64,000 nt of DNA from positions 62,001-126,000 of the IMG/VR virus record IMGVR_UViG_3300045256_000058. One strand, given 5' to 3'. This DNA comes from a virus. This document shows positions 867-59,701 of the stretch, piece after piece. The notes beneath the pieces were generated by a model. The model saw only the letters and a list, made by a program, of their open reading frames with translations, had not been told where the DNA came from and ran no database searches. A program made the translations under genes and the position numbers. How positions within the stretch are numbered: position 1 is the stretch's first letter; each line of letters starts with the position of its first letter.

Positions 867-2735
867 TTAGACATATGGATAAGGAGGATAACCAGGATAG
901 ACACTAGGAGCGGGTATAGTAGGTGTCGGAACTGTATCTTTTTTTCTCATTGAGTTAGCTAACATATTACCTCCAAGTAATACACCTCCAGCACCAGCAA
1001 TTGCGGCTCCCGCTTTTAGTAATCCATTATCAGATGAACCAAGTGTTCTTAATTTATTAATTAAATTAGCTCTACCCGCTTGCTCTACTACTTGTTCTCC
1101 CTTTTTGGCAGTAGATGCAGCTTTAGTTCCAACATTAGGTAAATTAGCTGGTATATCAACTGTTCTACCTGTACTTGGTACTTGTGCGGGTGTACCGTCT
1201 GGCATTGTAATGTTAATAGTCAAAGACTTATCTTGAGGAGTAGCTTTACCCCCAGTTTTTATACGTCCTTGTCTAGGTTGTCTTCTACTTGTTGTAGTTG
1301 GTTCTGGAGTTGAAATACTAGAAGCACCTGTAAGTGGGTCTTGTGTAGCAGTATAGTCAATATCAAATGCTGGTTGAGTAGCATTAGGGTCTACTGTTTG
1401 TTGTGTAATTTCACCATTAGTTGATTTAATAGATTTCTCTCCTACAGGTGGTAATCTATTAGGAGCATTAATAAATTCATCTAGCTTCTGTCCAGCATTA
1501 TCACGAAGTCTAGCTAATCGTTGTCCACCAATAGAAGCTAATTGCTTTAATCTATCTGGTGTTAATTGAGATTGAAGTAATTCAGTATCTTGTTTAGCCT
1601 TATCTAATAGATTTGTCTTGCCGTAAACATCATTACCTCCTTCATTATCAAGTAGTCTAATTACTCTACGAATTTTATCTCTACGAGTACGTAAACCAGC
1701 TTGCTTACCTGTAGGAGTGTATTGAATCTCTACAGGTGTTTTTGCTTTAATACCAGTAGGTGAATTATTATCTCTAGCACTAGGAGCAATGTAACTAGGA
1801 GCTACGCTTACTTTGGGATTTACTCCTCTTTGTACAGCGACATCTCTATCGTATATTTGACCTGATGCGATACGGTCAGCTTCTCTTTTATTTCTATCGG
1901 TAACAACTTCTTTAATACTATCTCCAAGACTTCCTTCTGGTAATGCTTCTTTAGTAGTTGGATTCTTACCAGCTAGTACATCAGTAGCAGGTCTAGCATT
2001 ATCAAGCATGTTAGCTAATACATTTGATGTACCTTCAAGTCTTTGAGCTAATTCTCTATTTGTTCGTTGTTGAACAGTAGGTACATTGGTTCCAGCAGCA
2101 CCATAGAAAGGTCTACCTTCACTTTTAGTTAGAAACTGTTGTGCTTGTTTTCTTTCTGACCGAGTAGGTAAACTTAACTTGCCTGCATTAATGTCTGCAA
2201 GTTCTTGAGGAGTTAACTTACCTCTCATCCAACGCTCATATCTATCTACAGTATTTACTGCATCTTGTGTTTGACGCGCAGATGGGTCTGTCCATGTACC
2301 AATAGCGTTTGTTAATATATTTGCATTACTAAACGTTTGAGGTACTCCATCTACAGTAAACTGCTCACCATTGGGCATCATAATAGGTACTTGGTCACGA
2401 AGATTCAAAGCTTGCGCTCTTAACGCATTCTTTCGTCTTACTGCTACCTTTTGAGATGTTTTATATTCTTTTCTAGCTCTAGCACCTAAACGTTTTCTAG
2501 TTTTTACACCTTCTGCATCGTTCTTTGATACTCTTTTCTCTCTTAAATATCCACGAAGACTACGTTCATCAGGAGGTGGATAAATATCTTCTCCAACTAA
2601 TGACTTTTTCTCTTCTGGGTTAGGAGCCGCATAAGGTGGTGTACCTCTCCAGTTAGGGTCTTCTCGCCCGAATGTAGATAGCATACCAGACGTATATGCC
2701 CATGCTACATATGAAGGCTTAACACATAATTTCAT
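867..2735 (-). CDS. Large basic, low-complexity virion-block protein with C-terminal hydrophobic segment
   Basis: 622 residues, no recognised family. The first 120 residues are strongly basic (many Arg/Lys), the middle is Thr/Pro/Gln-rich and looks disordered, and near the C-terminus there is one Gly/Ala/Leu segment (AGAAIAGAGGVLLGG) that could enter a membrane, followed by a Pro/Tyr tail. It lies between the prohead protease and the partial glycine-zipper gene, all reading leftward, so it is probably transcribed with the head genes. A DNA-binding internal head protein or an ejection protein would fit the composition, but nothing in the sequence proves either. Confidence 0.75.
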   Translation of the reverse strand: MKLCVKPSYVAWAYTSGMLSTFGREDPNWRGTPPYAAPNPEEKKSLVGEDIYPPPDERSLRGYLREKRVSKNDAEGVKTRKRLGARARKEYKTSQKVAVRRKNALRAQALNLRDQVPIMMPNGEQFTVDGVPQTFSNANILTNAIGTWTDPSARQTQDAVNTVDRYERWMRGKLTPQELADINAGKLSLPTRSERKQAQQFLTKSEGRPFYGAAGTNVPTVQQRTNRELAQRLEGTSNVLANMLDNARPATDVLAGKNPTTKEALPEGSLGDSIKEVVTDRNKREADRIASGQIYDRDVAVQRGVNPKVSVAPSYIAPSARDNNSPTGIKAKTPVEIQYTPTGKQAGLRTRRDKIRRVIRLLDNEGGNDVYGKTNLLDKAKQDTELLQSQLTPDRLKQLASIGGQRLARLRDNAGQKLDEFINAPNRLPPVGEKSIKSTNGEITQQTVDPNATQPAFDIDYTATQDPLTGASSISTPEPTTTSRRQPRQGRIKTGGKATPQDKSLTINITMPDGTPAQVPSTGRTVDIPANLPNVGTKAASTAKKGEQVVEQAGRANLINKLRTLGSSDNGLLKAGAAIAGAGGVLLGGNMLANSMRKKDTVPTPTIPAPSVYPGYPPYPYV

Positions 2736-2772
2736 TCGTTATTACCACTTCACTTATAAGGAGACGGACAGT

Positions 2773-3882
2773 TTAGATATACAGAGTTGAATACTTATAT
2801 TGTTTTGCGAAGTTAAGTAATCCTTTTGTATTTCTCTTGTAAGATACAGGTTGTTGTGTTGATGGGTCTTGCATACTTGGGTCTGCTACACCTTGCATTT
2901 GAGTTTGTGTTTGCTGCATTTGTTGGTCAGCAGTCATTGTAGCCATTGGGTCATTAGGGTCAGCACCTTGAGACATATCATCGGGTACATCAGTAAGTCC
3001 AAGTAAGTCAACAACTCTAAGTGAGAATCCATTTAATGCTGTGTATACATACTGCTTAAGCATTGTTACATCAGTAATATCAATAGATTCAGAAGTATAG
3101 ATATTATTTAGAAGCTTCCATAACTTTTCATTTAAGTCATCGTATTCTTCTTTTAGGTCTTCGAGTGTTTGTTCATTAGATTCAAGGTCTTCCCAAGTAA
3201 ATACGTTATTGTCATCCATTGAGTTAAAGTTGAATGACGCAGTATTACCAAAACCTGCATATTGAAATAGACCCATGTTAGGGATAGCAGGGATGGGTAC
3301 TAATGATAGCTCAATAATACGATGTTCTTTAGGGTCTAAGTTAAGTCCCATAGAAACAGAAGTAACGATACCATTTCTAACTTTGTCTACGGCATCTTTA
3401 GCTTTTACAACTACATCATCTAGAAATAGACCTAGCTTACCTACTAGATGTTTAGCTCTTGGATTGGGTAAATCGCTTTCTTGAATTACTTTCGTGTAAG
3501 CTTTACCTTCTACCCCACCAACTGTATTAGACACCTTCTTTTCATGGTCAGTACATAAAGGTACAATTTGACCTTCTTCTAATGCTCGATTAGTATGCTC
3601 CGCAATAGTCTCTAATCTATCAGGACTAAAGCTATGAGGTCTACCATCACTATCCTTAAACTCTCCTTCTACCGCAACCAATGCCTTCTTAATTTCTACC
3701 GCAGAGTCACCACTATCATCACCATCTTCAGCGAAGAATAGAGAAGTTTTTGGGTTCCATCCAATAGGTTGAAAGAATGCTACTTTAGGTTGTGACTTTG
3801 AGAAGTTTGCTTTTTGTCTTCTTTTTGTTTGTGCAAGACTCAGTGGTGCTGAAGTTGCGATATTTGTTTTTGTTATTAACAT
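2773..3882 (-). CDS. Prohead protease (phage maturation serine protease-like)
   Basis: 369 residues from the ATG at 3882; a TTG two codons upstream is possible. The central region has the usual prohead-protease layout: a DHEK segment (candidate His), then GIVTSVSMGL (candidate catalytic Ser), an acidic step and RIIELSLVPIPAIPNMG, which matches the conserved ELSLV-x-x-PA strand of S14/S78-type phage proteases. The C-terminal third is acidic then Gln/Met-rich and could be a fused scaffold. Two segments, KANFSKS near the N-terminus and TASFNFNS after the protease core, resemble a motif found in other virion-block proteins and may be self-processing sites (inference). The family's role is cleaving scaffold and capsid precursors inside the prohead. 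Confidence 0.75.
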   Translation of the reverse strand: MLITKTNIATSAPLSLAQTKRRQKANFSKSQPKVAFFQPIGWNPKTSLFFAEDGDDSGDSAVEIKKALVAVEGEFKDSDGRPHSFSPDRLETIAEHTNRALEEGQIVPLCTDHEKKVSNTVGGVEGKAYTKVIQESDLPNPRAKHLVGKLGLFLDDVVVKAKDAVDKVRNGIVTSVSMGLNLDPKEHRIIELSLVPIPAIPNMGLFQYAGFGNTASFNFNSMDDNNVFTWEDLESNEQTLEDLKEEYDDLNEKLWKLLNNIYTSESIDITDVTMLKQYVYTALNGFSLRVVDLLGLTDVPDDMSQGADPNDPMATMTADQQMQQTQTQMQGVADPSMQDPSTQQPVSYKRNTKGLLNFAKQYKYSTLYI

Positions 3883-3908
3883 TTGCAATACTCTAATGGT
3901 ATATAATC

Positions 3909-12962: not shown

Positions 12963-13787
12963 TTATCTACCGCGTGAAGAAAAACGTGTTCCGTTTCCTC
13001 TACTAAATGAAGCTACGTATTGATTTAGAGTTGTACGAGCATATTGTGCTTGCTCATCATCTTGTCCTTGTAGTGCATTCATTCCGGCAACACCAGCACC
13101 AAGACCACCAAGAGCTAATGCTCCGAGTCCTACTCTACGAGCCATTGGGTTAGCAGCTAAAGCTTGCGCTCTTTGCATTAAACCAGGAGCTTGTGCAGCA
13201 GCTTGTTGTTGAAGTTGTCTATTTCTAGCAGCATTGCGTAGTCCGAGTCCGCCAGCACCAGCAGCAGCGACACCACCAGCAGCGGCAGCATCAACACCCG
13301 GATGTCCCATTACATATCCTTTAGCTGAATTGAACGCATCACCAATGGCTCCACCAGCTCTTTGAAGGAAACCTTGATTTTGACCAGGCATAATTTCAGA
13401 AATACTTTGAATACCTGAAGTAGAAGGTGCAGGAGGTGGTGCAAAGTTCTCTGCAATATTTTGAATACCTTGATAGATACCTGAAGGTTGTGTAGCACCT
13501 GGGTTATATGGTACAGGAGGACGACCACCTTGTAGTAATCCACCTAGTCTGTTACCTAAACCTTGTAGTTGGTCTACACCAGTAGGAGCAGCTTGTGGAG
13601 CGCCACCAGGAAACATACCTCTAACATTTTGCCATGCTTGACCAGCAGCGTCCATATATGCGCTTGGGTCAGTAGGGTCAAAGAAGTTAGCGATACTAGC
13701 TTGTGGTGCAATAAAGCTCGCAGACCCTCTGTTGGCATGACGGTAGAGTGCGTATCTTGAAGCTTTTTGTCTTGAATACTTATTCAT
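12963..13787 (-). CDS. Ala/Gly/Pro-rich virion-block protein with glycine-zipper segments
   Basis: 274 residues, unknown family. The basic N-terminus is followed by SASFIAPQASIANFFDPTDP (residues 22-41), whose IANFFDP matches TANFFDP in the separate protein at 20711-21304. The middle is Pro/Gln/Gly-rich, then VDAAAAGGVAAAGAGGLGL and VGLGALALGGLGAGVAGM form two glycine-zipper segments. It has its own terminator 20 bases beyond its stop. Role unknown; a membrane-active ejection protein is one possibility. Confidence 0.7.
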   Translation of the reverse strand: MNKYSRQKASRYALYRHANRGSASFIAPQASIANFFDPTDPSAYMDAAGQAWQNVRGMFPGGAPQAAPTGVDQLQGLGNRLGGLLQGGRPPVPYNPGATQPSGIYQGIQNIAENFAPPPAPSTSGIQSISEIMPGQNQGFLQRAGGAIGDAFNSAKGYVMGHPGVDAAAAGGVAAAGAGGLGLRNAARNRQLQQQAAAQAPGLMQRAQALAANPMARRVGLGALALGGLGAGVAGMNALQGQDDEQAQYARTTLNQYVASFSRGNGTRFSSRGR

Positions 13788-13910: not shown

Positions 13911-14339
13911 ATGAAATTACTACAAAACAGCAATATCGCTAAATTCAACTTTGCCCAAGGTGCTGCAATTGGTGGAACTCTTGGTACATCACTAGGAATG
14001 GTAGGTGGTGGAGTACTAAATAGACAGCATATTATGAATAGTCTTACTCCAGAAGAACAACAACAGTATGATGATTCAGCTAATAGATTTAATACAGCTA
14101 CCGATGCTTTTCTGGCTAAAAATAGATTTAATATAGGAATTGCTACTCCAAATAGTGATGACCCATTAGCCAGAGACTTCGTAAATAGTGGTCAAGAGTT
14201 TTTAGATAACGACCAAGCAGTGACAAACAAATACTCTAATCCATACTTAACAATGGGATTACCTTTAGCTGGTGCAGCAGTGGGTGGAACACTAGGAGCA
14301 ATGGGTGCTGGTAAATATATTCGTGGATTGAAACGCTAA
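13911..14339 (+). CDS. Small glycine-zipper protein on the opposite strand
   Basis: 142 residues. It begins MKLLQNSNIAKFNFAQGAAIGG, like other virion-block proteins in which a short basic start is followed by an F-rich motif and a Gly/Ala run. Hydrophobic segments AAIGGTLGTSLGMVGGGVL and MGLPLAGAAVGGTLGAMGAG flank a hydrophilic middle, giving a two-segment hairpin topology. It is convergent with the fibre gene at 14336-16234 and overlaps its end by four bases. Function unknown. Confidence 0.65.
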   Translation: MKLLQNSNIAKFNFAQGAAIGGTLGTSLGMVGGGVLNRQHIMNSLTPEEQQQYDDSANRFNTATDAFLAKNRFNIGIATPNSDDPLARDFVNSGQEFLDNDQAVTNKYSNPYLTMGLPLAGAAVGGTLGAMGAGKYIRGLKR

Positions 14340-16234
14340 CAGAATAGAGTATATTCAAATTCTCTATCTAACTGCCAGTAGTAATCCCATACCTGGGCAT
14401 CGAGTATATCATTTGCCCCACCTATGAGTCCAAATCTCATTGCAGGTAGAATAAAGTTTTTATGATAACGTGCATATTCTGTAACACGTACACTGTTTAC
14501 TATGCCTTTTAGATTTATATCGATAGTATTGATGTCAATTGTAGTAATAGGGTCATCTGCTGTATAAGTAATAGGAGTCTGAGCAATACCGTTTACAAAG
14601 AATAATACTGTATGACCGTTGCGTACTAAAGCTAAATGATTATACTCAGTCTCCCTGTCAATAAAGTAGTTAAAAGCATTTGGATACACATAAGTATTAC
14701 TACCTAATGTAATTGTAATAGCTGTATTTTGAAAGATTGTGGGGTTATCTGTTTCGTAAGCAGCTATTTCACCAGTATAAGTAATCGATAAATCATCATC
14801 AGTTAGAAAATAATTATGAGTAATCGAGCTATCGCTTACAAAGTCTGATTTAAGCGGATAGTTAACAAATAGTTCAATAGTAAAATTGCTATCTAAAGTA
14901 ATCGGAGTACTGGCTGCAACATGAATGTAATTGCTATCACTAGAGAACTCAGCTACTTTTTCTTGAATACCAAATGTATATACTGGAATAGCTCGATTTG
15001 TAGTAGTTGTTGTAACTGTATTGGTGTCTAAATCTGATTTATCAGCACTCCATATTCTACTCGTTGAAACTTCTGGTTCAAAGTTAAGTAATAGCTGCAC
15101 ATAATCAAAGTAATCATCGTACAGCCCAGCTTTATCAAAGGTCTGTACTCTAGGATAACGACTTTTATCGTATCGATAAGCAGGTATACCACCTTCACCT
15201 ACTGCTGCCATATTAAGAGCTGTCGCAGTAATGTAACTTGTAGTTGTAATTACTGGAGATAGTCCAGTAGTAGCAGTTTTTTGTACAGTAATGGTTATTA
15301 AATCTGTTTTACCTGTTCCAGATAGTAATATAGACTTACCATCCTCGTACTTAATATTTTCTAACCCACCGATTAATATCACACCAGTATCTTGACGTAT
15401 CTCAAGTATCATTACTGCCGTTGTATTGTTCTTTAGATTAAAGATTGGAGTAAGTATGCATGTCGCATTAGTACCTAGTGGTACACCATTTACTATGTAA
15501 TAGTCTGCCTCAGCATAATCTAATTCAAGTATCGGTGTATTTGCGATAACAGTTTTTACTCGGTAAGAGCTATTGTATATGTAATTGCTATTAGCATTTA
15601 GATTTCCACCTAATGCAGGAGATGTATCTCTTACAATTTGCAAATCCATATTCTCCCAGACTAAATCCTCGTTTAGCATCAGTAATTGGTACTTAGTTTC
15701 TGGGTCTGTAATATTTACATCATCTAAATTTTGTAATTGATTGACTCTTAAACGAGTACTAAACTTTCCTGTGTCATGGTTGTAAACAAGAGTATGATTA
15801 TCCTGTGCTTCTGACTCTAACTCATGTAATGGATTAGCTATATCTACATCTAGTAACTCAAATAATGAGTAAGTAGGATGAAAATTTCTAAATGATAAAT
15901 ACAATGGGTCGTATCTAACATAATCACCAGATGCAGGATTATTGATTTCTACGTCAGCAAGACTACTAATACTACCGATGGTGTTAGTAGCTACAAACTT
16001 ATTACCTTGTTGAATAATGAAACTACCATCTACTGCATTCGTAAGGTCTAAATCTTCTAGCTCAGATAACTTAGTTACACCTTTACCTAACTCTACTATC
16101 TTCCCATCTAACGTTTTGGTATATAACGTACCTACCTCACCAGCAATTGAAAGACATAGTTCACCTACTGCTACTTCATGAGGTAGAGGTGCATCTGTAG
16201 AAAAACCGTGTTTAATAATTTGATTGGTAGTCAT
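14336..16234 (-). CDS. Tail-fibre-like protein with LamG-type C-terminal region
   Basis: 632 residues. The N-terminal module (IIKHGFSTDAPLPHEVAVGEL then LYTKTLDGKIVELG) is the phage fibre attachment pattern shared with the 362-residue paralogue at 10599-11687. Several short repeats of the type LxDVxIxNP follow (SSLADVEINNP, LLDVDIANP, LQNLDDVNITDP). From about residue 375 the sequence resembles a LamG/concanavalin fold: YVQLLLNFEP, IPVYTFGIQEKVAEFSSDSNYIH, FTIELFVNYPL, NHLALVRNGHTVLFFVNGI and GIVNSVRVTEYARYH. Likely a receptor-binding or decoration fibre. Confidence 0.7.
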   Translation of the reverse strand: MTTNQIIKHGFSTDAPLPHEVAVGELCLSIAGEVGTLYTKTLDGKIVELGKGVTKLSELEDLDLTNAVDGSFIIQQGNKFVATNTIGSISSLADVEINNPASGDYVRYDPLYLSFRNFHPTYSLFELLDVDIANPLHELESEAQDNHTLVYNHDTGKFSTRLRVNQLQNLDDVNITDPETKYQLLMLNEDLVWENMDLQIVRDTSPALGGNLNANSNYIYNSSYRVKTVIANTPILELDYAEADYYIVNGVPLGTNATCILTPIFNLKNNTTAVMILEIRQDTGVILIGGLENIKYEDGKSILLSGTGKTDLITITVQKTATTGLSPVITTTSYITATALNMAAVGEGGIPAYRYDKSRYPRVQTFDKAGLYDDYFDYVQLLLNFEPEVSTSRIWSADKSDLDTNTVTTTTTNRAIPVYTFGIQEKVAEFSSDSNYIHVAASTPITLDSNFTIELFVNYPLKSDFVSDSSITHNYFLTDDDLSITYTGEIAAYETDNPTIFQNTAITITLGSNTYVYPNAFNYFIDRETEYNHLALVRNGHTVLFFVNGIAQTPITYTADDPITTIDINTIDINLKGIVNSVRVTEYARYHKNFILPAMRFGLIGGANDILDAQVWDYYWQLDREFEYTLFC

Positions 16235-16235
16235 G

Positions 16236-17810
16236 TTAATCAGCTAATACATCTTTACCGTATTTTTGTAGTAGATAACTATTCTGTGAGTTAGATGTAT
16301 TACCCCTTACTGCTCGGTCAATTAAATCTAAATCAGTAGCATCACTTATTTGTTTTCGTCTATCACCAAGCTTTAGAATATTATCGGCTGCCATTTGTTG
16401 AGTACTAAATCCTTTACGTGCTTTACGTCCTTTCCAATATCCTTCATCAAAAGGTCTAGCTGCTTTAGATTGTTGGTAATCATCTTTAATTATCTTTCTA
16501 CCTTCAAGACCAGTTACCGTATCTTCAAGTATCAAATTGTTTTTATTATATGGTGAATGTATTGATTCTCTAAAGCCCTCGATACTCTGTCTACGACTTT
16601 GACCCTTTAAGTTTTGTAATCTAGGTCTTGTTGATATGAATTCATAATAATCAGACATCTTTGGTTGTTGAAGTGGTTCAACCATATCATGTAACGAGTG
16701 ATGTTGTAGTCCAATATTTGTAGTATCTAAGTCACGTCTTACATTTGCTTGCAACTTACTTCTTTTTAACCAATTTATAGCCGAATCCTTGAGTGCTGGT
16801 AGCCATTCTTGAGTACTAATAATTCCTCTTCGTCTAGCAAAGTTAGCAGTATCAGACATATAGCTAAATAATCCCCCTCTCATCTTTATATTGAAAGGTG
16901 TACGACTATACTTTCTAGCTAACTCGGTAATACGGTCTTTGAATCTGCCTCTTTCAGAGTATAACTCATTACCTTCTGCAATACTATCTAATAATGGATT
17001 TACCATATGTTCAGGTATAGGACGAATACTTAACTCATCACTAATTACATCTGGTTCACTATGTTCTGCAATTTGAGACAGTATATTTTTTGCTGATTGT
17101 TTATGTGCGGTAATTTCAGGGGCTATACCTTTTAATCTTCTTTGCCAATACTTGTTACCTGTTACATCAAAATGTTGAGTAGGTACAGTTTTATACTTAG
17201 GAGGAGTCAATGGAGCATCTATATTACTTAGGTCAATAATATCTAAAGGCTGTAGCTCTTGTCTTGTTCCATGAGTAGGTAAGACTAAGTTCGGTGCAAT
17301 GGGTCTACCTTTATCTATATCTTCACCTAGAGTAGAAAAGTTAGCAGTTTTAGACATATAACTATATGAAAATTTGTTTAACATAACTTTAGACATAGGA
17401 TAACTACCTGGAGCTAATCCATTCTTTTTCTCTACACTATATTTGCCTAAACCTAGTAACGATTGATAGGCTTGTTGAGCAATGGGGTCAGTATTATGTG
17501 CCGCCATTGTATCTCCAACTACACCTGTTTGAACAGATTTAGGTAAAGGTAATCCTTGTAGTATGCCATCCTCTAAATATCGAGCAGCAGCTTCACCTTC
17601 ATTAGATAGAGAGATAGGGTTTTGGCGGCTTAATGAAATCGGGGCACTATGAGAGTAGTCATGAAATGAAGTCTTAAATAAAGGCTTGCCACTACGGTTA
17701 AGAGATGCTTCATTCTCAGCAGTAAACCATCTTTTCTTATCTTTATTGATTTGTATTAGTTTATTTCTAACTTCGGGAGCTAAGTCTCGAATACGAGGCA
17801 TTATAGGCAT
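16236..17810 (-). CDS. Virion-block protein with repeated FSYM-x-x-TANF motif
   Basis: 524 residues, no recognised domain. Its striking feature is an internal duplication of a short motif: SYMSKTANF near residues 150-158 and FSYMSDTANF near 315-324; a diverged copy (FSYMHRTITF) occurs in the neighbouring kinase-like protein. The rest is basic, with many Arg/Lys and His. It overlaps the upstream gene by one base, so the two are translated together. The repeats might be processing or packaging signals (inference). It also resembles the fragmentary substrate side of a kinase/substrate pair, but there is no direct support. Confidence 0.65.
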   Translation of the reverse strand: MPIMPRIRDLAPEVRNKLIQINKDKKRWFTAENEASLNRSGKPLFKTSFHDYSHSAPISLSRQNPISLSNEGEAAARYLEDGILQGLPLPKSVQTGVVGDTMAAHNTDPIAQQAYQSLLGLGKYSVEKKNGLAPGSYPMSKVMLNKFSYSYMSKTANFSTLGEDIDKGRPIAPNLVLPTHGTRQELQPLDIIDLSNIDAPLTPPKYKTVPTQHFDVTGNKYWQRRLKGIAPEITAHKQSAKNILSQIAEHSEPDVISDELSIRPIPEHMVNPLLDSIAEGNELYSERGRFKDRITELARKYSRTPFNIKMRGGLFSYMSDTANFARRRGIISTQEWLPALKDSAINWLKRSKLQANVRRDLDTTNIGLQHHSLHDMVEPLQQPKMSDYYEFISTRPRLQNLKGQSRRQSIEGFRESIHSPYNKNNLILEDTVTGLEGRKIIKDDYQQSKAARPFDEGYWKGRKARKGFSTQQMAADNILKLGDRRKQISDATDLDLIDRAVRGNTSNSQNSYLLQKYGKDVLAD

Positions 17811-18943
17811 TAAATTATATCCTCTAAGTCTTCTAAATCTCGTAAGTTATGTTGTAGATTTCTTGGTCTATTAGGTACATTAAGTCTTCTATTTGCTACA
17901 TAAGCACCAGCTTCAGTAAGCGCATTCTGGTCATCGAACATACGAGTACCCATGTAGTTACCTAGAGGTACTTCCATAAATCCATTTACTTTAGGAAATC
18001 CTACATATTGATTAGCAGATGGGTCAAATCTAATATCTGTGTAGTTTTCAAATCTTTGTTTGTTCTTAATTGTATCCAGATTTCGACGTGATTGCTCCTC
18101 GGCTAGTTCTCCGGCATTATTTAGTTGGTAGTCAATAGCACCTCTACCTCTACCTCTGAGTACACCTCTGAAACTAGGACTGTTGTTATTGCTTCCATGT
18201 ACTAATTGCTGCCTACCTAAGTTTTCTAACCAGGCATTCTTTTTTATTTTATTTAGAGGATTACCAAATGTAATCGTTCGATGCATGTAGCTAAAAGTTC
18301 GTCTAGAATCGTAACCAACTAAGAAAGCTTTTTCGGCAGGAGTATCTTCAAAATCTTCTTTTAGTAGATTAAATCCTTTGTGCTTATTTAAGTTTGACCT
18401 TGATGCATTTTCAATTGCGTTATTATAGTCAATTAATTGAGACTGAGGTTTTGTTTTACCTACATTAGATACAACTATATTTCTAGGAGCTAAATCTGTA
18501 TGTAATATATTGGCTTCATCAAGCAGTCTATTACGTTGTCTAGCTGTTCTATGTCCTAAATAGTACATTTGTTTTGGTGATAAAGTTTTATCATTCATAA
18601 GATGATTAAGACTTTTACCACCATACTCTTGTACAAAACCATATTCATCTCCATGCTTATGTGTTCCATAAATTTTAGGAGAAATACCTAAATCGGCTGC
18701 TCTTGAAGTTATATCTCTTTCAGTATTTATGTCAGCGATACTGCCATCTCTATATGTCTTGACAGTTTTTTGTACACGATTTTGACTAGGTGAATAATAA
18801 ACATTTCGTGTACCTTGTTGTAACTTGACTGGATAAGGAGATGTGGATACCGTATCCATATAAGGAACACGTCTTCTTACTGCATCGACTCCTGTTTGAA
18901 GTAAACCTCTAAAATTATTTTTTATGTTATCAAAATTAGGCAT
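17810..18943 (-). CDS. Protein-kinase-like (RIO/Bud32-type fold) protein in the virion operon
   Basis: 377 residues. Residues 45-210 show a kinase catalytic core: a nucleotide-site Lys in QKTVKTY (about 59-62), a candidate helix-C Glu in NTERDI (76), a hinge after GFVQEYGG, the catalytic loop HTDLAPRNIVV with D150 and N155, and the metal-binding Asp in LIDYNNA (172). The glycine-rich loop is not obvious. After residue 210 comes a basic tail with TFSYMHRTITFGNP, like motifs in the next gene. Kinases are unusual in a head/tail block: it may phosphorylate virion or host proteins, or be a small-molecule kinase. It lies directly after TerL with a four-base gap. Confidence 0.65.
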   Translation of the reverse strand: MPNFDNIKNNFRGLLQTGVDAVRRRVPYMDTVSTSPYPVKLQQGTRNVYYSPSQNRVQKTVKTYRDGSIADINTERDITSRAADLGISPKIYGTHKHGDEYGFVQEYGGKSLNHLMNDKTLSPKQMYYLGHRTARQRNRLLDEANILHTDLAPRNIVVSNVGKTKPQSQLIDYNNAIENASRSNLNKHKGFNLLKEDFEDTPAEKAFLVGYDSRRTFSYMHRTITFGNPLNKIKKNAWLENLGRQQLVHGSNNNSPSFRGVLRGRGRGAIDYQLNNAGELAEEQSRRNLDTIKNKQRFENYTDIRFDPSANQYVGFPKVNGFMEVPLGNYMGTRMFDDQNALTEAGAYVANRRLNVPNRPRNLQHNLRDLEDLEDII

Positions 18944-18947
18944 TAGT

Positions 18948-20639
18948 CTACCACTCTAGAGTTCTTAAATCATCTGCATGAGGAAAGTCACTAAAGATTT
19001 CAATACTGTTATGGTCTAATTTATCAATAGTATTTGTATTGATACCCATTTCTTTGAATCTAGCCTTAGTCCAATCATCTTCAGCTATTTTTATTTTAGC
19101 TCCTTTAGTAATGAAACCTACTGACTCATTTCCAAATTCAGCAAGATACTGAACACCATATGCTATACAATCTACGATGTCATCATGAGAACCAATAGGG
19201 AATGACTTAAGTTCAGCTTTAATTGCTGCGGGGTCATATGTAGTTTCAAGCTTTAAGTCTGTTTGAAAAGGATTATAGATAACTATCTTCTTATCTCTGA
19301 AGTAGGTAAGGATGGAACCAAGTCTTTGTTCCTTACTACCACCAAATTTACGTGGGTCAAAAGCATAGATATTGTTTATCTCTCTTTCTAATAGAGACAT
19401 TGCAGCATGACCATTTGCTTTAGCTTCAATACCGATACGACTCTTTGGATACTTCTTCTTTAATTTTCTAATTGCATCTAATTGCTCAGGAATACTACAT
19501 TTGTTTCGATACATATCTACAATGTAGTACTTGTCATCCATCTTACATAGAACTAATCCAACTGTATATGAAGAAGTAGGAGATTCATTAAAGCTTAAAT
19601 CCCATACAGTCATCATCGTACTGTAGTTAATAGGTCTAGCATCTGTTTCTATAAGCCATTCTTCTTTGATTAAGTTACCGTCACCAGTTGCAGTAGGGTC
19701 TTGTTGATAACGAGTGTTATAAATAATTGGATTCTTTGCTTGCGCTGATAGAAAACTGTCAGGTAAACGATGAGGGTCTAGTAATTCGTTACGTACTTTA
19801 CGAATATCATTAAACTTAATCGGACTAACAAATGTTTTCTCAGGTATATATTTAGCAGGAAGACTTAATAGGAACCAACCCTGGTCGCCATAGGTTTCCA
19901 TAATGTAACCAGTAATATCGTTTTCTGCAAGTCTTTGCATTACAAGAATAATTACATCATTGTTTACATCATTTGAACGGTTTAAGAATGTCTGAGTAAA
20001 CCAATCATTAACTCCTTTAATCATGTTTGGATTATTTGATTCTTCAGAGTCAAGTATGTCATCAAGTATTGCAACTGTGTATCCAGTTCCTAGTACTTTC
20101 GATGTAGGAGAACAACCAAGAATATATCCATTCATATCATTATCGATACGCTTCTTGGTATTACTATCTGTAGCTAATGAGTATCTGAAGTAATCTTCAT
20201 TTTTAGGGTCACACCATCTGTCTTTGTAAAGAGGATGCTCAAGAATACGTCTACCATAAATAATGTTCTGCATGAATAGACGTTCAGAGTGAGAAGCTAA
20301 CCAGAATTTCTCTTGAGGATGATTTATCCACCACCATACAGGAGCAGTAATAGAAGCAGTAGTTGATTTACTACTACGTGGAGGAATATTAATGATTAGT
20401 CTTCGTATGTTTCTATTGAGTGCAGCTTGTATATGTTCGCATAAGCATTCAATGTGCCAGTTATTTACAAGAGGTTGAGGGTCAAAGGTATTCCAAAAAT
20501 TAATGAAGAATTGATATAGACTTCTTTCTGATTTTTCATACATTTCTTCTTGAAGTAACTCTTCAAGCATAAAGAGTTCTTCATCAAACTTCTCATCATA
20601 AAAGCCAGGGTCATCAGGTGTAAGTATTTTCTTAGGCAT
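18948..20639 (-). CDS. terL: Terminase large subunit (ATPase and nuclease)
   Basis: 563 residues from the ATG at 20639. Walker A is PPRSSKST (residues 86-93), preceded by RRLIINI; Walker B with the catalytic acid is VAILDDIL, and the motif III-like region LNRSNDVNNDVIILVMQRLAENDITG follows. The nuclease half has the RNase H-like acids: TVWDLSF, IGIEAKANG and SHDDIVDCIAYG, the last being the usual terminal DD motif. Length and motif order are normal for TerL. It pumps DNA into the prohead and cuts concatemers. It is expressed with the putative TerS and downstream head genes. Confidence 0.93.
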   Translation of the reverse strand: MPKKILTPDDPGFYDEKFDEELFMLEELLQEEMYEKSERSLYQFFINFWNTFDPQPLVNNWHIECLCEHIQAALNRNIRRLIINIPPRSSKSTTASITAPVWWWINHPQEKFWLASHSERLFMQNIIYGRRILEHPLYKDRWCDPKNEDYFRYSLATDSNTKKRIDNDMNGYILGCSPTSKVLGTGYTVAILDDILDSEESNNPNMIKGVNDWFTQTFLNRSNDVNNDVIILVMQRLAENDITGYIMETYGDQGWFLLSLPAKYIPEKTFVSPIKFNDIRKVRNELLDPHRLPDSFLSAQAKNPIIYNTRYQQDPTATGDGNLIKEEWLIETDARPINYSTMMTVWDLSFNESPTSSYTVGLVLCKMDDKYYIVDMYRNKCSIPEQLDAIRKLKKKYPKSRIGIEAKANGHAAMSLLEREINNIYAFDPRKFGGSKEQRLGSILTYFRDKKIVIYNPFQTDLKLETTYDPAAIKAELKSFPIGSHDDIVDCIAYGVQYLAEFGNESVGFITKGAKIKIAEDDWTKARFKEMGINTNTIDKLDHNSIEIFSDFPHADDLRTLEW

Positions 20640-20668
20640 AGTCAATGTTCATAGGTTGTAGTATATCT

Positions 20669-21892: not shown

Positions 21893-22468
21893 TCAAATAA
21901 TAAAGTGTAAGTTAGACGGTATATTCGGAAACTTATTTCTTTGTATTCTATATAGTCGGTCTAAAGATGATGTAGCTCCAGCAATCATATGATTCTGAGT
22001 TGGATTATTATTAGCATGATTTATCATAGTTTCTATCATTCCTTTAGCTCCGTAATTCTTATATTTAGGATGAGTTACAGTTTCTCCCCACATTTCAAAG
22101 CCATCGGTAGAATGAAGTGAGTAAGGAGTAGAGTAATCTCTCATTCCAGTCATTTTACGTAACCCAATAGTTGTTGGTTTACCTTCTATTGAAGTAGTTA
22201 GAGGTATTGTTTGATGTAATACTCCTCCTCCCATACTTAATGTTGGAGAAACAGGAGAAGTTAGCATACCTTGTGTATACTTTTTAGCTAACTTAGCATT
22301 TTCATATCGAGGATTTAGTGGATGGTTAGGTAAATCTATTCCTGGTTCATTATCACCAAAGTCTCTAAGTATCTCTGTATACTTATTGTCTAATCCTCTA
22401 GCATATTTTCTAACTACTCTGTCATTCATTGGAACGAATGCAAAGGTAGCCATATAATAGTATCTCAT
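21893..22468 (-). CDS. Possible GNAT-type acyltransferase
   Basis: 191 residues. The segment VTHPKYKNYGAKGMIETMINHA resembles motif A of GNAT acyltransferases (V-x-P-x-x-x-x-x-G-x-G/A-x-x-L-I), followed by HMIAGATSSLDRLYR, like the motif B region. The N-terminal half is not recognisable. The start at 22468 has AAGGAAA nine bases upstream; an ATG five codons later is an alternative. The gene sits between the putative small terminase and TerL genes, reading with them. The GNAT call is weak: motif A lacks the full Q/R-x-x-G-x-G/A. Confidence 0.4.
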   Translation of the reverse strand: MRYYYMATFAFVPMNDRVVRKYARGLDNKYTEILRDFGDNEPGIDLPNHPLNPRYENAKLAKKYTQGMLTSPVSPTLSMGGGVLHQTIPLTTSIEGKPTTIGLRKMTGMRDYSTPYSLHSTDGFEMWGETVTHPKYKNYGAKGMIETMINHANNNPTQNHMIAGATSSLDRLYRIQRNKFPNIPSNLHFII

Positions 22469-22508: not shown

Positions 22509-23495
22509 TTACATGACTTCTTCAGTCTCTCTTTCTAACTCGTATACTACTGGAGCATCTAATACTGCACTCACTTCAATAGTCTCAGGTTCAGATGAAG
22601 GTTTAAGGTCACTAGCATTTAGTTTTCTACCTAGCTTTGCTTCGAGTCTCTTGATAGCTGCTTGTCTTTCTTGAGGAGTTTTGAATTTATGAGACTTAGT
22701 TTCTATTTGGAATAGTTCCATATCTTCTTTTGGAGCATTCTCATAGATTTGTCTTTGTAGCTTATAGATGTTACTAGCTACAGTAATTGCTTCTTTTACT
22801 TCATTTAGAAAGATTGGAGTACCTGTTTTGTTATTTACCATATTCATGTACTCTTTTGTTTCTTCTGATAGATAGTTAGGATTATCTAAGTCTTCAGAGG
22901 CATCTAGTACCTCTCCAAACTTATGTTCGATATATCTATCTAGAACTACACCTAATTTATTACAAGCATTTACAGCAGCTATTTCAGCTTGATAATTCTC
23001 TTGTACATATAAACCTAGCTCTTGTCCTATATTTCTTTCATTTACTCTAGCTAAATAAGCTTTACGAAGATGTTGCCATTTATCTTTATGTACTTTATCT
23101 CTTAGTGTGGTAAAGTTTACTTCAAACTTCTCTGCAAATTCTTTGTAAGTATAATCTTCAGATGCAAATGTACCATCTTCTAACTGAATTCTTTTTCCAA
23201 GTACCCAATGTTTACGTAACTCTGTCCAGTTATACTTCTTAGTTGTTTTACCATAGATATGCTTTAGACGAGGATTTTGTTCAGGAGGTAGAGGTACTTC
23301 ACTAGAACTCTCATAGTTCATGATTGTATTGAGTTCTTTAATTTCTTCTAACTCTTTTGCTACTCTTGAAGTATCCGATAGCTTTACTTTCTTTAGAGTA
23401 GTATATGGTCTAGCATCTGAATCTTTCTTACGAGGATTTGGTCTAGCAATTAATGAATACGTTGTACCTGATTCATTGAATATTTTCTTAGGCAT
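22509..23495 (-). CDS. Putative terminase small subunit
   Basis: 328 residues. The N-terminal region includes a DNA-binding helix-turn-helix: YTYKEFAEKFEVNFTTLRDKVHKDKWQHLRKAYLARV, a layout common in phage small terminases and phage HTH adaptors. A long helical middle (QELGLYVQENYQAEIAAVNACNKLGVVLDRYI) and an acidic C-terminus follow. It lies upstream of terL in the same operon, separated by one small gene, as expected for TerS. The HTH and position support the role; no specific family was matched. Confidence 0.55.
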   Translation of the reverse strand: MPKKIFNESGTTYSLIARPNPRKKDSDARPYTTLKKVKLSDTSRVAKELEEIKELNTIMNYESSSEVPLPPEQNPRLKHIYGKTTKKYNWTELRKHWVLGKRIQLEDGTFASEDYTYKEFAEKFEVNFTTLRDKVHKDKWQHLRKAYLARVNERNIGQELGLYVQENYQAEIAAVNACNKLGVVLDRYIEHKFGEVLDASEDLDNPNYLSEETKEYMNMVNNKTGTPIFLNEVKEAITVASNIYKLQRQIYENAPKEDMELFQIETKSHKFKTPQERQAAIKRLEAKLGRKLNASDLKPSSEPETIEVSAVLDAPVVYELERETEEVM

Positions 23496-57596: not shown

Positions 57597-57915
57597 GGAT
57601 ATAGAATGGCGTAATTTTAGACTTGTTACGATGAAAGGCAAAGTAAATCCACTTTATATTCATCTAACTAAATATAAAATTGAGCCAGGTCGTATCGGAA
57701 TGACTGAGACTATGTTCCCAAATCGTAATGAACGAGAAAGCATAGATATAACGTGGTTTGGATTCAAAAATCTAAAGCATGGTTATTGGAAGTTCATTCG
57801 TGAGGGTAAAAAATATTGGCAAGGAAAGTGGGAAAGGTGGGATTGGATTACTCCCCTTTTTAGCATCACTTTAACAGTTAGACGGGACTTATGGACAGAT
57901 GGAACCTATCACTAG
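57589..57915 (+). CDS. Unassigned 108-aa basic protein
   Basis: Overlaps the preceding gene by eight bases. Beta-rich and Trp/Lys-rich (NLKHGYWKFIREGKKYWQGKWERWDW). Function unknown. The promoter of the E2/E3/DUF2828 unit lies just after it. Confidence 0.55.
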   Translation: MNRDIEWRNFRLVTMKGKVNPLYIHLTKYKIEPGRIGMTETMFPNRNERESIDITWFGFKNLKHGYWKFIREGKKYWQGKWERWDWITPLFSITLTVRRDLWTDGTYH

Positions 57916-57927
57916 ATGTTATAGGTA

Positions 57928-57956
57928 TTGACATTAGCTATAAGTTTCGCTAATAT
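57928..57956 (+). promoter_or_regulatory. Strong promoter whose start point falls at the first base of E2
   Basis: TTGACA (57928-57933), 17-base spacer, TAATAT (57951-57956). The predicted start, about seven bases after the -10 box, is at 57963, exactly where the E2 terminal stem begins. Confidence 0.8.
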
Positions 57957-57962
57957 GATATA

Positions 57963-58026
57963 AGAGGAATTCAGCAATCTACTTATCCCTTTGATTCATA
58001 CTCAAAAACGGAAAAAAATTCCTCTG
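57963..58026 (+). ncRNA. RNA element E2 (TCAGCAA family)
   Basis: Nine-bp terminal stem AGAGGAATT (57963-57971) / AATTCCTCT (58017-58025). Core TCAGCAA at 57971-57977; hairpin TTTGA-TTCATAC-TCAAA (5-bp, 7-base loop, CAT at the anticodon position) at 57990-58006; A-rich strand. It starts at the predicted transcription start of the DUF2828 unit. Confidence 0.65.
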
Positions 58027-58038
58027 CTTAAAGATTTT

Positions 58039-58095
58039 GGGGATTCAGCAACTCACTGTATTATTTCGCCAAACTTGGAATAAAAACAATCCCCT
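58039..58095 (+). ncRNA. RNA element E3 (TCAGCAA family)
   Basis: Seven-bp terminal stem GGGGATT (58039-58045) / AATCCCC (58088-58094). Core TCAGCAA at 58045-58051 with CAG/CTG mini-hairpin; inner hairpin TTATTTCG/TTGGAATAA-like with seven-base loop CCAAACT; AAAAA before the 3' strand. It follows E2 by 13 bases and precedes the DUF2828 gene by 32. Confidence 0.6.
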
Positions 58096-58126
58096 AGTTA
58101 ACCTTCATTGATTTTTGGAGTGTATT

Positions 58127-59701
58127 ATGGTCGTGTCAAAATTGAAGAATCTGAAATATTCACCAGCAGTTCCGTTTACTTACACGGAAAATGGTGCAAT
58201 TACATACAAAACAACTGGAAGTGCCGTACTTGACTTATTCTCCAGAGGCGCAGCAATGCGTATGGGAGGTCGGTCTTCTGAGCGTGATATTACGGGCATA
58301 TTTCGACCAGCGTTTCAAGAGAACGCAGCACTCGCTATGGCTACTCTTTTTTACATTCGAGATATTCCTCGTAAAGGAAAGGGTGGGCAAGGTGAACGTA
58401 ATTTCTTTCGTCTTGCATTTACTTGGGTAGCAAATAACTATCCTGAGCTTGCAAAAGAATTACTAAAGTTTATTCCTGAGTACGGAACTTGGAAGGACGT
58501 TCTCTATGCAACTAGAGGTACTCCGGTGTATGAAAATGCACTGAGTTTAATGGGTTATCAATTAGCTGTAGATGCTCTTGCATTGTCAGAAGGTAAAACA
58601 AATATCTCTCTAGCAGCTAAATGGAGTCCAAATGAATCATCAGGAAAACTATCTCAAAAGATGGCAGTTGAGCTTGCTACTCATTTAGGTCTTTCAATGA
58701 AAGGCTATCGCAACTTAACTAGCCCTCTGAGAAAGCATCTGAAGCTGGTAGAAACAGCTATGTCTTCTGGTAATTGGCATGAAATCGATTACGAAAAAGT
58801 GCCTTCAAGAGCTATGAAGATGTATCGTAAAGCATTTTATAAGAGAGATGAATCAAGATTCTCTGCTTATATTGCTGCTGCGGTAATGGGTGCAAAGAAA
58901 ATTAACTCTACTACTCTGTATCCATACGAAATCATTAAGGATTTAATCCCTTATGGTAGACCGATGGCTTACGGGTCATCTACGGATGAAAAAGCTCTGG
59001 AAGCAATGTGGAATGCTTTACCTAACTATCTAGAAGGTCAAGCTCTAAATGCTTTAGTTGTAGTGGATGTGTCCGGTTCAATGGCAGGCGACCCAATGTA
59101 TGTTTCGACATCATTAGGTCTATACGTCGCAGAACGTAACGAACACCCTCTATGGAAAAACCACTTCATTACCTTTTCTGCGGAGCCTAAGCTTCAAAAG
59201 ATTACGGGTAAGAGCTTTAAGGATAGAGTGTCATCATTGTTTAAGAATGCTGGTTACAACACAAATTTACAGGCTGTGTTTGACTTAATTCTTGACAAAG
59301 CAAAATCAGCCAAGCTATCTCAATCAGACTTGCCGGAAACAGTTTATATTGTTTCGGATATGGAATTCGACCAAATCGAAGATGGGTATGGCGGATATGG
59401 CTGGTACTCTTCGTCTTCTGCTGCATCTAAGAAAGCAAAGACTAATCTCTCTGCAATTAGAGCGAAGTTTAAGAAGGCAGGTTACGAAATGCCTAAGATT
59501 GTGTTCTGGAACGTAAGAGCAGCAAATATGCAATCTCCTGCAACCTTTAACGAGGATGGAGTTGCAATGTTCTCTGGACTGTCTCCAACTATCTTTCAAG
59601 CGGCATTGACTGGTAATTTTGACCCACTTTCAGCAATGCTGGAAACGATTGCGTCAGAAAGATACCGTCCAATTATCGATACAACTGTGTCGAGCTTGTA
59701 G
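58127..59701 (+). CDS. DUF2828-type protein with Ro60-like architecture (helical N-terminal region plus VWA)
   Basis: 524 residues from the ATG at 58127 (GGAG at about 58117). Conserved DUF2828 blocks: AVLDLFSRGAAMRM, LFYIRDIPRKGKGGQGERNFFR (72-95), IPEYGTWKDVLYATRG, LAAKWSPNESS, VPSRAM and TTLYPYEII. The C-terminal VWA has MIDAS ALVVVDVSGSM (D314, S316, S318) and VYIVSDMEFDQI. Ro60/TROVE proteins share this order: an HEAT-like helical ring, then VWA, with Y RNA bound outside and RNA ends inside. Two RNA elements precede it on the same transcript and a third follows in a tRNA-like gene, so I infer an RNA-binding role. No TROVE homology is claimed by sequence. Confidence 0.8.
   Translation: MVVSKLKNLKYSPAVPFTYTENGAITYKTTGSAVLDLFSRGAAMRMGGRSSERDITGIFRPAFQENAALAMATLFYIRDIPRKGKGGQGERNFFRLAFTWVANNYPELAKELLKFIPEYGTWKDVLYATRGTPVYENALSLMGYQLAVDALALSEGKTNISLAAKWSPNESSGKLSQKMAVELATHLGLSMKGYRNLTSPLRKHLKLVETAMSSGNWHEIDYEKVPSRAMKMYRKAFYKRDESRFSAYIAAAVMGAKKINSTTLYPYEIIKDLIPYGRPMAYGSSTDEKALEAMWNALPNYLEGQALNALVVVDVSGSMAGDPMYVSTSLGLYVAERNEHPLWKNHFITFSAEPKLQKITGKSFKDRVSSLFKNAGYNTNLQAVFDLILDKAKSAKLSQSDLPETVYIVSDMEFDQIEDGYGGYGWYSSSSAASKKAKTNLSAIRAKFKKAGYEMPKIVFWNVRAANMQSPATFNEDGVAMFSGLSPTIFQAALTGNFDPLSAMLETIASERYRPIIDTTVSSL

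Follow-up and report, generated by a model that had tools for sequence, protein, structure and literature searches.

A kinase-like protein joined to a candidate head-cargo tag beside the terminase gene of a cyanophage-like virus

In phage T4, a 10-residue capsid targeting sequence brings unrelated internal proteins into the head, and Alt, once gp21 has processed its two termini, is ejected and modifies the host RNA polymerase; sites also lie close to the ends of the T4 head protease itself (PMC9026906). Similar cleavage motifs occur on ejected proteins of giant phages (PMC5694885). The known phage kinases are the T7 kinase, the phage 933W kinase and the HipA-like kinases of 'Gratiaviridae', as named in PMC8008677, and JSS1_004 (PMC12345140). 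The initial annotation of the DNA analyzed here stated that kinases in the head operon are rarely described, which is a fair statement, with one precedent in the HipA-like kinases of 'Gratiaviridae' (PMC8008677). Among cellular kinases, PRPK, the human Bud32, has no activation loop (PMC7864929).

We analyzed a window of 64,000 nucleotides, positions 62001-126000 of a 146,347-bp virus record (G000), in which a kinase-like gene directly follows TerL (Table 1). Only 4 nt separate the TerL stop from the start of this gene. Family searches with the 524-aa product of the next gene gave no match in Pfam or PHROG. Homologues of the kinase-like protein were found in the Pseudanabaena phages PA-SR01 (QIW88440) and Pam2 (Pam2_189), at 28-30% identity, and in nine IMG/VR contigs; all of them come from Pseudanabaena-phage-like genomes and sit close to TerL. 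They were found only with alignments, as neither the kinase nor TerL matched any viral contig when used as a single query; a genome-contig scan returned no relatives in bacteria or prophages. The window TerL is 39% identical to that of PA-SR01 and Pam2, and the nuclease-like, small-terminase-like and fibre-like neighbours of the relatives have homologues in the window. In PA-SR01, the QIW88441 gene sits between the kinase and TerL. The nearest relatives by MCP (about 80% identity) are L082 and L083, incomplete records in which TerL and the kinase are absent.

Table 1. Features of the window at and around the kinase-like gene (window positions; assignments are predictions from sequence).
Feature	Position	Strand	Remarks
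Mu-I-like prohead protease/scaffold (putative)	2773..3888	-	tag-like sites RQKANF, GNTASFNF, GLLNFA
524-aa protein, no assigned function	16236..17810	-	ATG overlaps kinase stop by one base (TAATG)
Candidate tag FSYMSDTANF in 524-aa protein, residues 315-324	16839..16868	-	
Candidate tag YSYMSKTANF in 524-aa protein, residues 149-158	17337..17366	-	
Kinase-like gene	17810..18943	-	ATG start, 377 aa, coordinates include stop; ORF, translation, homologues
C-terminal tail, residues 227-377	17813..18265	-	homologous to free-standing tagged protein; YVGFP..GFMEVPLG module
Candidate internal tag TFSYMHRTITFGNP, residues 216-229, at kinase/tail junction	18257..18298	-	same place as MQHFANF in relatives
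Kinase-like domain, residues ~46-214	18302..18808	-	HHalign and sub-threshold Pfam/NCBIfam/PHROG kinase matches
Metal-binding 'DFG-equivalent' motif LIDYNNA, residues 170-176	18416..18436	-	L, D invariant in 12 homologues
Catalytic-loop motif HTDLAPRN, residues 148-155	18479..18502	-	H, D, N invariant in 12 homologues
Candidate helix-C Glu E75	18719-18721	-	kept in all 12
Candidate beta-3 Lys K59 (VQK)	18767-18769	-	
TerL	18948..20645	-	directly upstream of kinase-like gene, same transcription direction; PHROG 38, E 6e-77
191-aa protein beginning with tag MRYYYMATFAF	21893..22468	-	no Pfam match
Putative small terminase / DNA-binding protein	22509..23495	-	homologue of PA-SR01 QIW88441; weak PHROG matches

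This arrangement would also suit a kinase that acts at assembly in the infected cell, phosphorylating TerL, the 524-aa neighbour or the scaffold to time packaging, and that is never delivered. The stop-start overlap with the 524-aa gene, the 4-nt spacing to TerL and the position near TerL in all relatives are in line with such a role. However, PA-SR01 and Pam2 yielded no convincing homologue of the 524-aa neighbour (best E 0.04), whereas the kinase is conserved in both phages, and the tag described below ties the kinase to many proteins and not to TerL. We consider an assembly-time role quite unlikely. The narrower proposal of the initial annotation, that the kinase and the 524-aa protein form a kinase/substrate pair, found no specific support: of the two, only the kinase has a convincing counterpart in these phages.

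Two side observations were made on the neighbouring genes of the relatives. In L008 (10057-12171, and also in L020), TerL contains about 140 extra aa, inserted in frame at the ATPase motif, with Cys first and VSHN last, followed by Ser, which looks like a mini-intein. In Pam2 (ON014754.1), the proteins at 2064-3905 and 57601-58398 are both publicly annotated as 'botulinum neurotoxin'. The former is a homologue of the 632-aa protein of the window (14336-16234), which has only a weak Laminin_G_3 match (E 0.015), so the name looks misannotated there.

That the product of the gene at 17810-18943 is kinase-like in sequence is well supported, and profile comparison supports a kinase-like fold. Compared by HHalign with eight bacterial Ser/Thr kinases, the window domain alone scored 97.3% probability (E 1.7e-11, residues 90-181) against 0.3% for a reversed control, and the 11 relatives, taken without the window protein, scored 86% (E 5e-6) against bacterial Ser/Thr kinases. 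Database matches were consistent in kind and low in score. In Pfam, the protein matched Pkinase (E 9.7e-4) as well as Choline_kinase, Kdo and APH, all below the cut-off (for PF00069, 19 bits where the gathering cut-off is 31.7); in PHROG, it matched a serine-threonine kinase (E 5e-4, below the curated cut-off); and the PDB chains matched were all kinases and all weak. When the 146-kb genome was searched in six frames with PF00069, the sole match was the kinase-like gene (E 3e-5, below the cut-off). The best-matching atypical kinase models were those of Bud32/PRPK in NCBIfam, TIGR03724 and NF011464, matched by 7/10 and 5/10 members with best E values of 5.6e-4 and 8.8e-5, although at 19.5 bits versus a cut-off of 125 these matches are far below threshold. 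The Pfam matches of the relatives include RIO1 and ABC1. Together, the Pfam, NCBIfam and HHalign results suggest that the domain is kinase-like and nearest to the atypical Bud32/RIO kinases, and that it is a member of no family by that family's cut-off.

Canonical ePKs have an activation segment that ends in APE, as well as helices F-I; by inspection, no APE follows D172 here, and the tag starts about 45 residues past D172. Neither AlphaFold2 model was usable (pLDDT 35 for the whole protein and 36 for the trimmed domain), since the alignment offered just 10 rows and nine of these were nearly alike. A Bud32-like RGR tail (RGRGRG, residues ~263-268) was considered and is not counted, as this stretch aligns with the Gly-rich tail that the relatives have.

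The residues expected of a kinase were then read from the alignment of the 12 homologues, the window protein included. H148, D150, N155, D172 and E75 are invariant in 12/12. The initial annotation had called the protein kinase-like, and both the HHalign comparison and the invariant Asp/Asn set bear this out; the Asp residues, whose loss in homologues it had named as evidence to the contrary, are kept throughout. It had also described a complete set of Asp, Asn and Asp with a candidate Lys and Glu. This is correct for the window protein and does not extend to the relatives: K59 is opposite Ile in the other 11 when beta-3 is read without a gap, and the alignment contains no conserved Lys at the beta-3 strand of these 11. 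Because this Lys is missing, what the family conserves may be something other than activity.

A pseudokinase or ATP-binding scaffold, whose fold serves binding and not phosphotransfer and which merely delivers or organises the tail, would account for replacement of the Lys in 11/12 members, and viral kinase subfamilies that have lost N-terminal elements are known (PMC1821047). Against this, the HxD, Asn and DFG-Asp residues are invariant, the window protein has a complete candidate set, and some kinase families tolerate the loss of the beta-3 Lys or compensate for it, the latter being so in Wnk and CAK-chloro kinases (PMC1821047). In addition, the kinase part is under purifying selection in the relatives: across about 50 pairs, many with dS near saturation, the median dN/dS was 0.15 for the kinase part and 0.32 for the tail. 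We regard a pseudokinase as rather unlikely. The substrate might instead be a small molecule, a host metabolite or surface sugar phosphorylated by an enzyme like Kdo kinase, APH or choline kinase. Sub-threshold matches to Kdo, Choline_kinase and APH and the match of 4/10 members to the Kdo kinase model PRK01723 point in that direction, but the best and most frequent matches are to Bud32/RIO and protein kinases, which makes a small-molecule kinase very unlikely.

The C-terminal part of the kinase-like protein resembles a free-standing protein of the same genome (G000:14810-15475, 221 aa) that has the tag MTYSYMVDIATFGNP at its start. Residues 201-377 of the kinase gave a Smith-Waterman score of 89 with this protein, and shuffled sequences gave 34 +/- 5.7, with 0/2000 as high. 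The free-standing protein has MTYSYMVDIATFGNPQNRQLKKAW near its N-terminus, where the Met at residue 12 is a candidate internal start, and the module RYDIDSRQYVAFPHGGMGEEPIP farther along; its N-terminus corresponds to the internal tag of the kinase. The YVGFP..GFMEVPLG module was also found in three tagged proteins of PA-SR01 and Pam2. This homology suggests that in the window kinase, too, the domain has been fused to a tagged protein; its tail is unlike that of PA-SR01. We take the joining of a kinase domain to a tagged tail to be a well-supported reading of the sequences.

The initial annotation had pointed out a version of an FSYM motif in the kinase and two in the next protein, and all three were recovered (residues 216-229, and residues 149-158 and 315-324, respectively). 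The pattern [YF]xY[ML]x(0-5)[ATI][NDTS]F was counted 8 times among the proteins of G000, where shuffling gives 0.34 expected (maximum 3 in 200), a count that somewhat overstates the significance because the pattern was written after the examples had been seen. It begins within the first 13 residues of four proteins and occurs twice in the 524-aa neighbour. Of the copies, that in the window kinase (TITFG) departs most from the canonical form. The pattern plays no part in the homology with the free-standing protein.

In the PA-SR01-like phages the tag has another form. HF[ATVS][NDHS]F occurs 9 times in PA-SR01 and 11 times in Pam2, versus 0.03 expected from shuffling, usually in the form M(Q/K/E/I)HFANF at the very start of otherwise unrelated proteins and sometimes at their very end. 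It is N- or C-terminal in most tagged proteins and internal in the kinase, where in PA-SR01 and Pam2 it is preceded by Met and stands at the point where a glycine-zipper-like tail joins the kinase domain. Other tagged proteins include L013:3927-4511 (MKHFTNF) and L064:37932-38654 (MQHFADF); the former has a weak match to JAB-type metalloproteases (E 0.03) and may be another protein-modifying enzyme among the cargo. Gly/Ala-rich, glycine-zipper-like stretches were also seen in tagged or tag-like proteins at 12963-13787 and 13911-14339 of the window and at L063:24377-25084, and one tagged protein of PA-SR01 matched Pfam Gly-zipper_Omp at 4e-5, just below the cut-off. It is possible that these glycine-zipper-like tagged proteins are ejected and insert into the membrane.

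Comparison of the gene slot among the relatives showed two states. In L009, L013 and L016, it holds the tag and tail without the kinase and starts at the Met of the tag, whereas in 11 other phages it holds kinase, tag and tail, and the fusion retains this Met. These data suggest that either a tagged protein gained the kinase domain by in-frame fusion or such a fusion has lost it, and that the domain is dispensable.

We also looked at where the tag occurs with respect to the phage head. The prohead protease of the window is 47% identical to a PA-SR01 protein annotated as Mu-like prophage I. In four phages (the window phage, L110, PA-SR01 and Pam2), the prohead protease has tag-like sites near both termini, and in three there is one just past the protease domain; these sites differ in sequence (STANF, MTANF, TASFNF, LAQF and LLNF). 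A scaffold-like protein carries TANFSASL and VANFSASL, and the five TANF sites of G000 are all confined to its head/packaging region, which makes up a quarter of the proteome. No tag was found at the MCP ends examined. In Pam2 (L064:17009-18931), a 640-aa protein has four KSANF/KSASF sites, a pattern to be expected if it is a scaffold or core protein that is cut into pieces.

From these distributions, a role of the tag as a head signal is a reasonable inference. The same motif could be a binding or localisation peptide, for example one that docks onto a phage or host protein, with the kinase remaining cytosolic; tagged genes outside the structural block, among them a DEAD-box helicase in PA-SR01, fit such a peptide. 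The confinement of the five TANF sites to the head/packaging quarter of the genome and the similar sites that four phages have at the two termini of their prohead protease argue against it, and we judge this alternative unlikely on balance. The suggestion of the initial annotation that the kinase and the 524-aa protein are packaged together gained indirect support, as FSYM belongs to a tag set that has related sites in the prohead protease and in candidate internal proteins.

The reading we prefer, with a probability of about 0.5, is that a small atypical kinase has been fused to a head-cargo and protease tag and is packaged, cut and ejected in the manner of T4 Alt. Since the tag is common to many proteins of the group, including the head protease, the kinase is probably inside the head and delivered with the DNA. 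The kinase-like domain, nearest to Bud32/RIO by profile, is fused in frame to a tag-led tail and would be made together with TerL. The tag ([YF]xYMx..[AT]xF here, M(Q/K)HFANF in PA-SR01-like phages) would mark proteins that enter the prohead and would draw the kinase in. The Mu-I-like prohead protease, with similar sites at its own ends, probably recognises the tag and perhaps cuts there, which would free the kinase from its tail. The kinase would then be ejected with the DNA and phosphorylate host targets at once, as T4 Alt does by ADP-ribosylation. We infer packaging, cleavage, ejection, catalysis and the target of the kinase from the features described above. Several observations speak against this reading: the tag is internal in the kinase and terminal in most other tagged proteins, its window copy is far from canonical, the relatives lack the beta-3 Lys, some have no kinase domain in the slot, the MCP has no tag, and some tagged genes are outside the structural block. 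Our broader proposal is more tentative, and we put it at somewhat less than an even chance: that in a lineage of large cyanophage-like viruses the short peptide HFANF / SYMxxTANF is an undescribed modular tag for admission to the head and release, here fused to a Bud32-like kinase that is injected with the genome.

If this is true, the cell would receive a phage kinase as a protein, ahead of all phage gene expression, and one could test which host proteins are the first to be modified by a cyanophage. The tag would be a sequence rule that lists the injected proteins of a poorly known group of freshwater cyanophages, a cyanobacterial-phage counterpart of the T4 capsid targeting sequence. We found no description of a tagged, head-borne phage kinase in the open-licence papers searched, which is weak evidence of novelty.

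The closest counterparts are the kinases of PA-SR01 (QIW88440) and Pam2 (Pam2_189, 'casein kinase I-like protein 1'). Like the window kinase, they lie near TerL, have the tag at the same place and share the catalytic residues, the beta-3 Lys excepted; their tail is a glycine-zipper-like module, whereas that of the window protein is the YVGFP module. They are annotated by similarity only, and PMC10286775 and PMC9382816 give no function for them. T7 gp0.7 and JSS1_004 are, like the window kinase, phage-encoded protein kinases, and they act on host proteins (PMC8008677, PMC12345140). They differ in being expressed early from the genome, from genes outside the head operon. To our knowledge, no cargo tag is known in either. 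The HipA-like kinases of 'Gratiaviridae' resemble the window kinase in that their gene is inside the structural block, but they belong to another kinase family and lie between the portal and MCP genes, and no tag is described for them in the available part of PMC8008677. With PRPK, the window kinase shares a short domain and the lack of a recognisable activation segment (PMC7864929), but unlike Bud32 it is fused to a phage tag and tail. Its likeness to T4 Alt and the internal proteins is in the overall scheme: a short peptide common to unrelated proteins, a protein-modifying enzyme among them, and a protease with sites at its ends. The differences are that the tag sequence is unrelated to the T4 motif, that the tag is internal in the kinase, that the enzyme is a putative kinase rather than an ADP-ribosyltransferase, and that its packaging is a prediction.
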